The notes under the pieces are model-generated. The model did not search any database, was not told where the DNA came from, and was given only the letters and a program-made list of their open reading frames with translations. From positions 3,233,181 to 3,297,180 of the forward strand of contig CP013099.1 in NCBI GenBank assembly GCA_001447805.1: a stretch of DNA of 64,000 nucleotides, written 5' to 3'. Origin of the DNA: Candidatus Tenderia electrophaga (GTDB lineage: Bacteria > Pseudomonadota > Gammaproteobacteria > Tenderiales > Tenderiaceae). Within the stretch, counting starts at the first letter, position 1, and each line of letters begins with the position of its first letter. A program made the translations under genes and the position numbers. Of this stretch, positions 16,713 to 51,836 are shown piece after piece.

Positions 16713-17354
16713 ATGCATCCCCTCTATCAACGCGCGAGCTTCGTCACCGGCGCCCACAACCTGTCGCAACTGCCGCCCGACACAGGCACGGAAGTCGCCT
16801 TCGCCGGGCGTTCCAATTCCGGCAAGTCCAGCGCCATCAATCGCATCACCGGGCAAAAGTCGCTGGCCCGCACCAGCAAAACCCCCGGCCGCACCCAGCA
16901 GATCAATTATTTCGCCCTGGATGAGCAGCGCCATATCGTCGACCTGCCCGGCTATGGCTACGCCAAGGTGTCGGAAAAGGTGAAACTGCATTGGCAGCAC
17001 ACCCTGGAAGCCTATCTGCAGCAGCGCCAGGCGCTGCGCGGCTTGGTATTGATGATGGATATCCGCCATCCGCTCAATGAATTCGATCGCCAGATGATCC
17101 TCTGGTGCCAGCACAGCGCCATGCCATTGCACATCCTGCTCACCAAGGCCGACAAGCTCGGCCGCGGCGCCGCTGGCAATGTGCTGCAACAGGTGCGCCA
17201 GGTGCTGGCCAACGACTATGGTGTGGAACGTGAGCGGCCCTGGGCCACGGTGCAGTTGTTTTCAGCCTTGAAGGGCCTGGGGACCGAGGAGGTATGGACG
17301 GTGCTGGATGCCTGGTTCGAGCGGGCGGCGGAAAAAGAAAGAGCCCCGAATTAA
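16713..17354 (+). CDS. engB: Ribosome biogenesis GTPase EngB (YihA/YsxC)
   Basis: 213 residues, the normal length. G motifs are in order: G1 GRSNSGKSS (Lys38), G2/G3 region [11 protein letters not shown] and [14 protein letters not shown]4 [10 protein letters not shown]5 FSALKG. EngB helps assemble the 50S subunit in the cytosol. It is convergent with polA, and the intervening 0.5 kb holds the small-RNA locus. The 3' end of this gene (17332-17354) contains part of the minus-strand terminator of small RNA C, so coding and terminator sequence overlap. Confidence 0.96.
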
Positions 17355-17438
17355 CCACGGTTCGGGGCTCAAATTACCACCCAGGGGTTAGGTGGGAGTC
17401 TGCCATTAACTGAGGAGGAGAAGGCAGATTGTTGCGTT
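17332..17438 (-). ncRNA. C-rich-loop small RNA C (ErsA/Spot 42/sX13-like position)
   Basis: Predicted transcript of about 107 nt, read leftward. Hairpin 1: TCTGCC/GGCAGA (plus-strand 17399-17428) with loop containing CUCCUCCUC. Hairpin 2: CCACC/GGTGG (17377-17395) with loop UAACCCCUG. It ends in a perfect 10-bp stem (GAGCCCCGAA, 17341-17370) followed by TTTCTTTTTC at 17340-17331, an intrinsic terminator inside the 3' end of engB. The 5' end is estimated from the GAACTT/TCAAA promoter upstream. The C-rich loops could pair with Shine-Dalgarno sequences of target mRNAs (inference). Confidence 0.68.
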
Positions 17439-17444
17439 CGAAAA

Positions 17445-17472
17445 TTTGACAGCGGTGCTGAAATTAAAGTTC
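17445..17472 (-). promoter_or_regulatory. Sigma-E-like promoter of small RNA C
   Basis: On the minus strand GAACTT (17472-17467) is separated by 17 nt from TCAAA (17449-17445). This matches the extracytoplasmic sigma-E/AlgU pattern GAACTT-N16/17-TCnnA. Pseudomonas ErsA, at the equivalent place, is known to depend on this sigma factor. Confidence 0.55.
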
Positions 17473-17486
17473 AATAGCGGGGCCTT

Positions 17487-17598
17487 AAAAAAAATACCCC
17501 GGCCAATTGGGGGGACCGGGGCGAAGGCTCTGCCGGATATTGGGGGAATGTCCGGCAGTCGTGTCCGCTGAGGGAGGAATTCCAACGGACCCATAACT
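17487..17598 (-). ncRNA. C-rich-loop small RNA B
   Basis: Predicted transcript of about 112 nt with three hairpins. (1) GTCCG/CGGAC (plus 17563-17590), loop with CCUCCCUC. (2) TGCCGGA/TCCGGCA (17531-17557), loop CAUUCCCCCAAUA. (3) Terminator CCCCGG/CCGGGG (17497-17521), loop UCCCCCCAAUUGG, followed by TA and eight U. The layout of about 112 nt and three C-loop hairpins resembles Xanthomonas sX13. It is preceded by a near-consensus sigma-70 promoter. The 5' end is an estimate. Confidence 0.75.
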
Positions 17599-17604
17599 TC
17601 CGTA

Positions 17605-17632
17605 ATTATACAACAATCTTAGAATCAGTCAA
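17605..17632 (-). promoter_or_regulatory. Near-consensus sigma-70 promoter of small RNA B
   Basis: On the minus strand TTGACT (17632-17627), a 16-nt spacer and a perfect TATAAT (17610-17605). It is the best sigma-70 promoter match noticed in the window and points directly into small RNA B. Confidence 0.75.
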
Positions 17633-17665
17633 AATAATCGCCTTAGTTTGTGTGTATACGGGTAT

Positions 17666-17788
17666 AAAAAAAGCCCCGGAAACTTGGAGGGAGTCCGGGG
17701 CATCAAGTCTAAGCCCGGCTTGGGGAAACCGGGTAGAGGGGGCCCCGCTCAGGGAGGGGAGCGGGATTAAGCGCAAAGGGTAGCGCTT
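17666..17788 (-). ncRNA. C-rich-loop small RNA A (polA-proximal copy)
   Basis: Predicted transcript of about 123 nt with four hairpins. (1) AAGCGC/GCGCTT (plus 17769-17788), loop UACCCUUU. (2) CCCGCTC/GAGCGGG (17744-17765), loop CCCUCCCU. (3) CCCGG/CCGGG (17714-17733), loop UUUCCCCAAG. (4) Terminator GCCCCGGA/TCCGGGGC (17673-17701), loop CUCCCUCCAAGUU, followed by seven U. Every loop is C-rich. It is read in the same direction as polA and lies just downstream of it, as ErsA and Spot 42 do. Confidence 0.72.
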
Positions 17789-17794
17789 ACCTAT

Positions 17795-17821
17795 GTAGAT
17801 CGGCCCGGAATTTAAAAGTTC
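17795..17821 (-). promoter_or_regulatory. Sigma-E-like promoter of small RNA A
   Basis: On the minus strand GAACTT (17821-17816), a 16-nt spacer and TCTAC (17799-17795), close to the sigma-E -10 TCTGA. It shares the string TTGAACTTT with the small RNA C promoter. It lies inside the stem-loop of the plus-strand terminator at 17797-17842. Confidence 0.45.
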
Positions 17822-17842
17822 AAGGGCCGATCTTCTTTTTTT
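17797..17842 (+). terminator. Intrinsic terminator facing polA
   Basis: Plus-strand stem AGATCGGCCC (17797-17806) / GGGCCGATCT (17824-17833), followed by TCTTTTTTT to 17842. It would stop rightward transcription from engB before it runs antisense into polA. Confidence 0.75.
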
Positions 17843-17883: not shown

Positions 17884-20592
17884 TTAATGGGCCTCGTCCC
17901 AGTTGGCCCCCACACCGATATCCACCACTAAGGGCACATCCAGTTCGGCGGCGCCGGCCATACAGCGGCGGATGCCGTCCTTGGCTTCCTCTATCTGGCC
18001 TGTTTTCACCTCGAACACCAGCTCGTCGTGTACCTGCATGATCATGCGTGCCTCGACCTTGCTGTCGGCCAGCCAGGCGTAGGTCTCGATCATAGAGCGT
18101 TTGATGATGTCGGCCGCGCTGCCCTGCATGGGGGCGTTGATGGCGGCGCGCTCGGCGTACTGACGGCGCTGGCCGTTGCGGGAATTGATGTCGGGCAGGT
18201 AGAGGCGGCGGCCGAACAGGGTCTCCACGTAGCCCTGGTCGTGGGCTTGGGCACGCATGCGGTCCATAAAGGCCTTCACCCCCGGATAGCGCTCGAAATA
18301 GAGATTCACATATTCCTGGGCCGCGCCGCGCGCGATGCCCAGCTGTTTGGCCAGGCCGAAGGCCGACATGCCGTAGATCAGGCCGAAGTTGATGGCCTTG
18401 GCGCTGCGGCGCTGGTTGGGCTCCACTTTATCCAGCGGCAGGTTGAAGATCTCGGCGGCGGTGGCGCTGTGGATGTCCTTGTCTTCCTGAAACGCCTTGA
18501 CCAGCCCTGCGTCGCCGGAGAGGTGGGCCATGATGCGCAGCTCGATCTGGGAATAGTCCGCCGCCAGCAGTTGGCAGCCCTCCGGAGCGATGAAGGCCTG
18601 ACGGATGCGCCGGCCCTCCTCGCTTCTGATGGGGATATTCTGCAGGTTGGGATCCGAAGAGGACAGCCGCCCGGTGGCCGCCACCGCCTGATGATAGGAG
18701 GTATGCACCCGGCCGGTGTCGGGATTGATCTGCAGCGGCAGTTTATCGGTATAGGTGGACTTGAGTTTGCTCATGCCGCGGTGTTCCAGGATCAGACGCG
18801 GCAGCTCAAAGTCCAGCGCCAGCTCCTGCAGTACCGCCTCAGCGGTGGAGGGCGCCCCCTTGGGGGTCTTTTGCAGCACCGGCAGTTCCAGTTTGTCGTA
18901 GAGAATGGCCTGGATCTGCTTGGGGGAGCCCAGGTTGAAGCGTTCTCCCGCCGCCGTGTGGGCCTGCTGCTCGATCTCGTCCATGCGCCGGGCCAGGGTC
19001 TTGCTCTGCTTGGCCAGCATGCCGGTGTCGATGAGCACGCCGCGGCGTTCGATGTCCGACAGTATGGGCACCAGCGGCATTTCGATGGTCTCGAACACCT
19101 GTTTCAGGCCGGGCTCTTGTTCCAGCCGTGGCCACAGGGTCTCATGCAGGCGCAGGGTGATGTCGGCATCCTCGGCGGCATAGGGGGCGGCCTGCTCCAC
19201 GGCGATCTGGTTGAAGGTCAGTTGTTTGGCGCCCTTGCCGGCGATCTGTTCGAAGTGGATGGTCTGATGGCCTAGATAGGCTAAGGCGAGGGAGTCCATG
19301 TCGTGGCGCGAGGCGGTGCTGTTGTAGACATAGGATTCCAGCATGGTGTCAAACTGCACGCCGCGCAGGGTGATGCCGTGGTTGGCCAGCACGCTCATGT
19401 CGTATTTCAGATTCTGGCCGACTTTTTTCTTGCCGTCGTCTTCCAGCAGCGGTTTGAGTTGATCCAATACCTCATCGCGATCGAGTTGCTCGGGGGCGCC
19501 GGGATAGTCGTGGGCCAGGGGTACGTACGCCGCTGTGCCGCTGTTGATGGCGAACGACACGCCGACGATGCGGGCGGCCATGTAGGCCAGATCGGTGGTC
19601 TCGGTGTCGAAGGCGAACAGTTCGGCCTTGGCGAGTTTGTTCAGCCATTGATCCAGCTGTTTTTGTGTCAGGAGGGTCTGGTAGTCGGTCACCACGGCGG
19701 CGCTTTCGGGCTCGCCTATGCCCTCTGCCTCCGGCGCCCCTTCGTCCAACTGGCGCAGCCAGGTCTTGAACTCCAGCTTCGTATACAGCCGGCGCAAAGC
19801 CTTCGTGTCCGGGGTTTGCAGTTTCAGTTGCTCCGGTGTCTGCGCCAACTCTACATCGCATTTGATGGTGGCGAGCTGGCGCGATAAGCGCAGCTGCTCC
19901 AGGTTGTCGCGCAGGCTCTCGCCCACCTTGCCCTTGATCTCATCGGCCCGCTCGATGATCGCATCCAGGGAGCCGTACGCCTTGAGCCACTTTACCGCCG
20001 TCTTGGGGCCGACCTTGGGCACACCCGGGATGTTGTCCGAGCTGTCGCCCACCAAGGCGAGATAATCGATGATGCACTCCGGCGGGATGCCGAATTTGTC
20101 GATCACCCCGTCGTGGTCCAGGCGCGTATTGGTCATGGTGTTGATGAGGCTAATCTTGCGGTCCACCAGCTGGGCCATGTCCTTGTCGCCGGTGGAAATA
20201 ACGGTATCCAGGCCGTGCGCGGTGGCCTGGCGTGCCAGGGTGCCGATGACGTCGTCCGCCTCCACCCCGTCGATGATCAGCATGGGAATGCCCATGGCCC
20301 GCACCAGTTCGTGCAGCGGTTCGATTTGGCTGCGCATGTCGTCCGGCATGGGTGGCCGGTGTGCCTTGTACTGCTCGAATAGCTCGTCGCGGAAGGTTTT
20401 GCCCTTGGCGTCGAACACCACTGCCATCAAGTCGGGCTCGTAGTCCTTCAGCAGACGGCGCAGCATATTGGCCACGCCGTAGGCCGCGCCGGTGGGCTGG
20501 CCGTCGGCAGTGGTCAGCGGCGGCAGGGCGAAAAAGGCACGATACAGGTAGGAGGATCCGTCGACGAGGATGAGCGGTTTGGGTGTGGTCAT
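17884..20592 (-). CDS. polA: DNA polymerase I
   Basis: 902 residues (E. coli 928). N-terminal 5'-3' exonuclease domain (about 1-290) begins [19 protein letters not shown]. The 3'-5' proofreading domain keeps its metal residues ([10 protein letters not shown], Asp329 and Glu331), so proofreading should be active. The polymerase domain has motif [15 protein letters not shown] (Asp679), the O-helix region [16 protein letters not shown] and motif C VHDELVFE (Asp856). It fills gaps in repair and removes Okazaki RNA primers. It starts at the ATG at 20592 and is divergent from the LOG gene. The 3' flank is the small-RNA array. Confidence 0.98.
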
Positions 20593-50682: not shown

Positions 50683-51836
50683 GGGTGATCGTATGCCTTT
50701 ATATAGAGTCCACCTGCGGGGCAGGATACCATCCCCTGTAATTCCAATACCAGCAGAATCGAGGCGACCGCCTCGGCGGGCAGCCCGCTACGCTCTATCA
50801 GGGTGTCCATGCTGACCGGGTCGTGGCCCATTAATTCCAGGAGTTTCAAGGCGCTGGGGTCAAGCTCGGGACGCTGTGCAAGATTAGACTGCGGCGCCGT
50901 CGCGGGGTTCGGCAGGCCCAGTTCGGTGATGATGTCGTCGATAGTTTCCACCAGCTTGGCGCCCTGACGGATCAGGTTGTGGCAACCACGCGCCAGCGGA
51001 TTGTGGATGGAACCGGGGATGGCGAATACCTCGCGGCCCTGCTCGCTGGCCAGGCGGGCGGTGATCAGGGAGCCGCTCTTGGGCGCAGCTTCCACGACCA
51101 GAATTCCCAGGCTCAGGCCGCTGATGATGCGGTTGCGGCGCGGAAAGTGATCGGCCATGGGCAGGCTGCCGAGGGGGAATTCGGACACCAGCGCGCCGTG
51201 CGCGGCGATGTCGTGGGCCAGTTTGCGATGTCGGGCGGGGTAGACCCGATCCAGCCCGGTGCCGGCGACGGCGAGCGTTCGGCCGCTGCCCGCCAGGGCG
51301 CCCTCGTGGGCCGCGGCGTCGATGCCCAGCGCCAGACCGCTGGTGACGGTCAGGCCGGCATGGCTCAGGCTTTGGGCGAAATTGAAGGCGTTGTCGCGGC
51401 CACCGGCGCTGGGATTGCGGCTGCCGACGATGCCCAGCTGGGGCGTCGCCAGCAATTCCACCCGGCCCTTGACGAACAGCAGCGGCGGGGCGCTGTCGAT
51501 CTGTTTCAGGCGCTCGGGGTAGCCGGGGTCATGCAGGGTGAGGATATGGTGATCAGGACTCTGACGGTGCCAGTCCAGATCGGCCGCCACCCGCTCCCAG
51601 TCCGGCTGTTTGAGCCAGTCCTTGCTTTCGCGCGGCAACTCCAGGCGGTTGATCTCGCCGGCGCCGGCGTCCAGCAGGTGTTCGGGGTGTTGGTAGTAAT
51701 CTAATAGAATTTGGTAGCGCCGCGGGCCGATGCCGGGGCAATGGAGCAGGGCCAGCCAGGCGGCGAGGGTTTTGTCTTGAGATCGCCCCCGGCCGGGCTC
51801 GTCGGCATTGACCGGATCGGCGCTGATGGCATCCAT
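50679..51836 (-). CDS. dprA: DNA-protecting protein DprA
   Basis: 385 residues: N-terminal SAM-like region (LLHCPGIGPRRYQILL), Rossmann DNA-binding core with GSRNPSAGGRDNAFNFA, SGLALGIDAAAHEGAL, FPRRNRIISGLS and VEAAPKSGSLITARLA, and a C-terminal winged helix. It protects incoming single strands and loads RecA during natural transformation. It lies between the LysM gene and smg on the minus strand. Confidence 0.96.
   Translation of the reverse strand: MDAISADPVNADEPGRGRSQDKTLAAWLALLHCPGIGPRRYQILLDYYQHPEHLLDAGAGEINRLELPRESKDWLKQPDWERVAADLDWHRQSPDHHILTLHDPGYPERLKQIDSAPPLLFVKGRVELLATPQLGIVGSRNPSAGGRDNAFNFAQSLSHAGLTVTSGLALGIDAAAHEGALAGSGRTLAVAGTGLDRVYPARHRKLAHDIAAHGALVSEFPLGSLPMADHFPRRNRIISGLSLGILVVEAAPKSGSLITARLASEQGREVFAIPGSIHNPLARGCHNLIRQGAKLVETIDDIITELGLPNPATAPQSNLAQRPELDPSALKLLELMGHDPVSMDTLIERSGLPAEAVASILLVLELQGMVSCPAGGLYIKAYDHP

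Follow-up and report, generated by a model that had tools for sequence, protein, structure and literature searches.

The sigma-22 dependence of ErsA, a small RNA (sRNA) of Pseudomonas, is said to have been described originally by Ferrara et al. in 2015. Two papers place the ErsA gene between polA and engB and report its expression to be dependent on sigma-22 (AlgU) (PMC7565897, PMC8575079), a dependence that the first of them calls strict (PMC7565897). ErsA has so far been studied as a Pseudomonas RNA. In Xanthomonas, the sRNA sX13 adjoins polA, forms stable hairpins and is reported to repress its targets independently of Hfq, for which it needs both its own C-rich loops and G-rich motifs close to the translation starts of the targets (PMC3771888). 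The same text mentions that the Spot 42 gene of Escherichia coli is next to polA, and its authors asked whether polA loci elsewhere encode RNAs of the sX13 kind (PMC3771888). NmsRA and NmsRB of Neisseria are, in the available part of their description, tandem sibling sRNAs with anti-Shine-Dalgarno motifs, both with sigma-70-like signatures (PMC5362039). Our literature search, to which subscription papers were mostly closed, returned neither an sRNA array of mixed sigma dependence nor a class-wide ErsA family.

Here we analysed a polA locus in a 64-kb window, the whole stretch of 64,000 nucleotides taken from the 3.76-Mb genome of the marine bacterium Candidatus Tenderia electrophaga (G000). 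The interval between polA and engB carries three predicted sRNA units (A, B and C), all on the minus strand, which is also the polA strand. In each of them, paired promoter-like boxes precede a compactly folded RNA that ends in a U-run terminator. The features, in window coordinates, are as follows.

17884..20592, minus strand: polA (DNA polymerase I), upstream neighbour, reading frame recognised by eye and by tblastn synteny
17795..17821, minus strand: promoter A, sigma-E type, GAACTT-N16-TCTAC, with -35 box at 17821-17816, -10 box TCTAC at 17799-17795 and a 16-nt spacer; predicted start about 17790-17792
17664..17791, minus strand: sRNA A, four hairpins and a U-run
17789-17768, minus strand: sRNA A, stem-loop SL1
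17766-17743, minus strand: sRNA A, stem-loop SL2, loop CCCUCCCU
17737-17708, minus strand: sRNA A, stem-loop SL3, CCCC loop
17701-17673, minus strand: sRNA A, terminator, loop CUCCCUCC
17605..17632, minus strand: promoter B, sigma-70 type, TTGACT-N16-TATAAT, with TTGACT at 17632-17627, TATAAT at 17610-17605 and a 16-nt spacer; predicted start about 17598-17601
17486..17600, minus strand: sRNA B, three hairpins and a U-run
17590-17563, minus strand: sRNA B, hairpin 1, loop UUCCUCCCUC
17558-17530, minus strand: sRNA B, hairpin 2, CCCCC loop
17522-17496, minus strand: sRNA B, terminator, CCCCCC loop
17445..17472, minus strand: promoter C, sigma-E type, GAACTT-N17-TCAAA, with GAACTT at 17472-17467, TCAAA at 17449-17445 and a 17-nt spacer; predicted start about 17437-17440
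17335..17440, minus strand: sRNA C, three hairpins
17428-17399, minus strand: sRNA C, hairpin 1, loop UCUCCUCCUC
17395-17377, minus strand: sRNA C, hairpin 2
17370-17341, minus strand: sRNA C, terminator, overlapping the 3' end of engB
16713..17354, plus strand: engB (YihA/YsxC GTPase), convergent neighbour, reading frame recognised by eye and by tblastn synteny

The folds have z-scores of -5.0 (A), -2.9 (B) and -4.3 (C). Their loops are alike but not identical, and the terminator loop of C has no C run, so that the three RNAs need not share all of their targets. A consensus terminator scan of the window recovered none of the three terminators, because their loops are longer than its limit. 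The terminator of C (17335-17370) occupies the last codons of engB, the frame of which outruns the part conserved in most relatives, the match often stopping at residue 202-207 of 213. In this genome, promoter A is spanned by an inverted repeat (AGATCGGCCC...GGGCCGATCT) that has a plus-strand T-run (17797-17836); it could terminate plus-strand transcription from engB or be a chance occurrence.

The boxes and spacings of the three promoters, all on the minus strand, are exactly those given by a sequence-only reading of this DNA, which had assigned A and C to sigma-E and B to sigma-70. We scored both strands of the window with a sigma-E position weight matrix built from the promoters of 109 homologous sRNAs, all taken from genomes outside the host family to avoid circularity. 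Promoter A ranked first (23.6 bits) and promoter C second (22.9 bits), and the third site reached 12.5 bits. These ranks, together with the alignment of promoters across relatives, in which the boxes are conserved, give good support to the assignment of A and C to sigma-E. Likewise, the sigma-70 assignment of B is well supported by its being the sole site in the window with 11 of 12 sigma-70 matches and with the presence of sigma-70-like boxes in five species. A matrix trained instead on the host family's rpoE autopromoters (eight sequences) placed A no higher than 4th and C 14th among the sites of the window. Its top site, GAACCC-N16-TCTAAT (50910..50883, minus strand), falls inside the frame of a dprA-like gene, some 200 nt ahead of an open reading frame downstream, and is probably due to chance.

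The same reading had called the three RNAs siblings, and a covariance model derived from nine copies of A only (R1) bears this out. Specifically, R1 matches B (31.2 bits, E 3e-6) and C (20.2 bits, E 0.002) in this genome, as well as the orthologs of B (31-43 bits) and C (15-43 bits) in relatives, and because the model contains nothing but A, the three RNAs are related rather than just alike in composition. In its structure, 97.6% of cells are paired and five pairs show two-sided changes. Application of RNAalifold to all 15 A-type rows overlooked hairpin 2 owing to a register shift, and the structure was therefore written by hand on nine rows; in this alignment, hairpin 2 of G000 is one column out of register.

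The host family was sampled by eleven genomes, seven of them from the host genus. RNA A and its promoter are present in all eleven, and sigma-E boxes precede each of the 13 family copies of A, a total that includes the tandem duplicate of G006 and the extra locus of G009. When two copies from another family, f22, are added, GAACTTT and the TC of the -10 box are without variation across the 15 aligned A-type sequences. RNA C is found in nine of the eleven genomes; of the other two, G007 is a doubtful case and G005 has none. Nine of ten candidates entered the C alignment (A3), the one from L012 being omitted as no terminator was found, and ATTGAACTTT and TGTC are invariant in all nine, although the columns of the alignment as a whole average only 57% identity. 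The motif is partly selected, given that GAACTT helped in picking the copies; nevertheless, the eight C copies recovered by the RNA model alone all have the boxes. RNA B is confined to a narrower range, with orthologs in five of the seven genus members (here and in G001-G004), and the RNA model did not find it in the other four genera of the family. All five orthologs have sigma-70-like boxes and no sigma-E boxes by the rule of the survey described below, with the -10 box weak in G003 and the -35 box weak in G004 (TCGACC). A GAAGTT/GAACTT-N16-TCCTCC arrangement within B (G000 and G003) was rejected as a promoter, TCCTCC being the RNA's own loop. Copies located outside the polA-engB interval in G009 and G031 (L020 1504-1630; L022 1464-1845) keep sigma-E-type boxes.

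Beyond the family, R1 detects 161 of 369 gammaproteobacterial genomes (E 0.001). We surveyed promoters in the better-scoring part of this list, retaining 152 copies in 119 loci from 170 matches; the 18 dropped comprised 15 duplicate places (copies from the window itself, and loci that had been retrieved twice), one match cut at its 5' end (L109) and two weak matches (L048 and L041:120). The sigma-E rule demanded a GAACTT-like -35 box (one mismatch, or GAAC plus two), 15-18 nt and a TC at the expected distance. Sigma-E-type boxes precede 130 of the 152 copies, versus 5.5% per copy in Markov shuffles. Only sigma-70-type boxes were found for six copies (2.0% in shuffles), five of which are the B orthologs and the sixth a lone copy in G268 (L154); the other 16 have neither type by the survey rules. 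Across the class, the box pair with its 16-17-nt spacing recurs, and its distance to the RNA start hardly varies; among the 109 out-of-family promoters, 93 have a spacer of 16 nt and 16 have one of 17 nt. Either polA or engB lies within the fetched stretch for 124 of the 152 copies. Tandem arrays reach five copies in G271, whereas G180 and G287 have four each, and under the survey rule every one of these copies has sigma-E-type boxes; the five-copy and four-copy arrays are at L099 757-1501, L041 1090-1846 and L098 959-1896.

Known Rfam families capture little of this diversity. No family reached its gathering threshold anywhere in the window, and among 40 scanned loci five did so, four matching anti-hemB and one Pseudomon-1/ErsA (RF01719). 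The latter family is over its cut-off in only one of the 369 genomes of the class, and 12 of the 13 loci that match it above or below the cut-off are flanked by polA or engB. RpoE is encoded in every one of the 40 genomes checked, even where the RNA copy is without sigma-E boxes, and its presence is thus non-discriminating. RNA A is of a type found at polA loci, and ErsA and sX13 occupy the same locus. As judged from these comparisons, sigma-E control is the ancestral, class-wide state and the sigma-70 promoter of B a lineage-specific exception, a point that the sequence-only reading had missed. The sequence comparison suggests that a polA-locus RNA with anti-Shine-Dalgarno loops, putatively controlled by sigma-E, is common in the envelope-stress response of the class.

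A second such exception appears in family f22, in which all eight genomes have copies. The engB-linked copy of genus g26 has TTGAGT or TTGAAG, 18 nt and TATAAC or TATAAG in all four species (L207, L073, L075 and L081), where GAACTT-N16-TCTAAT occupies the same register in the sister genus, g275. In one f22 copy, TATAAC now stands at the very position of a former TCTAAT -10 box, and the first copy of genus g274 is also without the -10 TC (three of three). The f22 sibling copies of which the upstream region was read keep the TC at -10 and have GAACTT, GAATTT or GAACTC at -35. The g26 sites match the sigma-70 consensus at 9 of 12 positions at best, with 18-nt spacing, and fail the sigma-70 rule of the survey at the last -10 base. 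TTGAACTT-N16-TCTAAT is a single -10 base away from TTGAAC-N18-TATAAT; since TTGAACTT already offers TTGA, one base change (TCTAAT to TATAAT) could start the switch. Taken with B, the f22 case suggests that reassignment of one copy to another sigma factor has occurred repeatedly, at least twice, and this lineage supplies promoter sequences from before and after the event. The broadest reading of these patterns, that a single sigma-E-controlled sRNA family with ErsA as its Pseudomonas branch resides at polA-engB in much of Gammaproteobacteria, expands repeatedly in tandem to up to five copies and has at least twice passed one copy to sigma-70 as its siblings stayed under sigma-E, has in our judgement an even chance of being correct.

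The host genome encodes a full-length RpoE (TIGR02939, 330.6 bits), with RseA-like and MucB-like genes recognised by eye downstream of rpoE, and Hfq. The rpoE autopromoters of the host clade share the layout of promoter A, GAACCY-N16-TC[TC]A[TC], in all eight loci read (eight of nine full-length matches, L061 being left out). A genome-wide search with a loose E. coli-like sigma-E consensus gave no enrichment, with 15 matches versus 29 for the reversed pattern. In the same genome, GAACTT-N16-TCTAA lies upstream of an HtpX-like protease gene recognised by eye (L027, about 1501), which is likely a sigma-E target. A search for GGAGGGAG-N1-10-ATG, a candidate target pattern, returned eight places versus two for the reversed pattern, and only two of them head long reading frames, one glnA-like and the other of the HIT type (by eye; L199 and L202, about 1501). 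In both cases GGAGGGAG, which could pair with the CUCCCUCC loop of A, stands directly ahead of the start codon, and this is suggestive only as a pointer to the two genes as candidate targets.

The reading that we favour, and hold with good confidence, is that of an ErsA-like tandem array in which A and C are driven by RpoE in envelope stress, B is made from a sigma-70 promoter without stress, and the C-rich loops repress translation. In this reading A represents the ancestral gene, with C as a sibling of long standing. Envelope stress would free RpoE from the RseA-like anti-sigma factor, and the RpoE holoenzyme would then transcribe both genes; B, having passed to the housekeeping sigma-70, would be transcribed without envelope stress. 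The anti-Shine-Dalgarno-like C-rich loops (CUCCCUCC, UUCCUCCCUC and UCUCCUCCUC) most likely base-pair with translation-start regions rich in G, a step in which Hfq probably takes part, and would thereby repress translation. By analogy with ErsA and sX13, stress would induce A and C to repress mRNAs whose ribosome sites are G-rich, and B would provide a similar activity to cells that are not under stress, giving the cell a basal as well as a stress-dependent supply. The proposal of the sequence-only reading that alike loops confer graded control of shared targets is plausible, the CCUCC-type loops being consistent with it.

The description of B as constitutive is an assumption. All six columns of its -35 box agree in at least four of the five species, as do 62.5% of the spacer columns, versus 13-21% of flanking columns, and TCTAA in the spacer is common to all five. 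This striking conservation of the spacer raises the possibility of extra regulation, and B need not be constitutive. Tentatively, a specific regulator may bind the stretch of -35 box and spacer, so that the array would join envelope stress to a second signal; we regard this as possible, though on the improbable side, as the putative operator motif of the spacer, TTGACTNATTCTAA, shows no genome-wide distribution: its exact matches occur only at B, in three of the seven genus genomes, and with up to one mismatch there are 23 in those seven genomes versus 39 for the reversed control, revealing no regulon.

The same conservation weighs on the idea that the sigma split reflects neutral drift after duplication, with B a redundant copy that simply lost its sigma-E control. 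Turnover of the array lends this idea some weight: in G006, a duplicate of A occupies the place of B, and behind it 19 nt remain that are identical to a portion of a B terminator region (L006), implying that B was probably once present there and lost, and G005 retains A only. Nevertheless, the -35 box, spacer and C-rich loops of B have been kept in five species despite diverged flanks, and we consider drift unlikely.

The GAACTT boxes might, rather than being promoters, belong to a different conserved element, for instance a terminator or the binding site of a protein. The inverted repeat across promoter A occurs in G002 and G003 as well as in G000, where it is accompanied by the plus-strand T-run; however, other relatives lose the repeat yet keep the boxes, and the near-constant placement of the box pair relative to the RNA start throughout the class makes this explanation very improbable. 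A functional RNA on the plus strand, a CsrA sponge with GGA loops, was dropped as scarcely credible: the complementary loops do hold GGGAGG, the plus strand does have a stem with a T-run at 17797-17836 and CsrC lies near engB in E. coli, but the U-runs of all three units and the conserved promoters point to the minus strand, and B and C fit the minus-strand model.

If the favoured reading of an array split between RpoE and sigma-70 is correct, cells could produce RNAs of one kind under stress as well as during normal growth. The polA-locus RNAs found across the class partly answer the question that the sX13 authors pose in their paper (PMC3771888). Arrays with split sigma control also constitute a natural test of whether duplicated sRNAs diverge in their control before they diverge in their targets.

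Among the known systems, Spot 42 differs from the array in its control, which is by cAMP-CRP; the Spot 42 model (RF00021) has no match in the window even at E 5. NmsRA and NmsRB resemble the array as tandem siblings and differ from it in that no split involving an alternative sigma factor is described in the available part of their account. The alpha-proteobacterial ar14 model (RF02344) gives B 26.8 bits, below its gathering threshold of 58.8. With anti-hemB/Burkholderia RNA 7 (RF02837), the window RNAs share a layout of a hairpin with a C-rich loop, CCUCCCUGAGCGGG, and a terminator; A scores 37.3 bits (E 4e-7) and B 24.6 bits, neither reaching the cut-off of 49.5, which the A copy of G008 just exceeds (49.8). 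Adjacency to polA and C-rich loops are common to sX13 and the window RNAs, and its model (RF02232) gives B 16.2 bits, under the 50-bit gathering threshold. ErsA (RF01719) shares with the RNAs described here the polA-engB location, the polA strand, a structured body and a terminator at the end, even though its 50-bit gathering threshold is not reached (the best window score is 16.2 bits, for C, and the host genome has no match at E 0.001). The one match in the class above this threshold (L040) has GAACTT-N17-TCATA upstream. On the evidence of their sequences, A and C also have AlgU/sigma-E-type promoters of the ErsA kind, whereas B does not. ErsA regulates targets such as algC, oprD, amrZ and anr in an Hfq-dependent manner, and an hfq gene is present in the host genome. 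Unlike ErsA, the locus has three tandem genes, one of them with a sigma-70 promoter.
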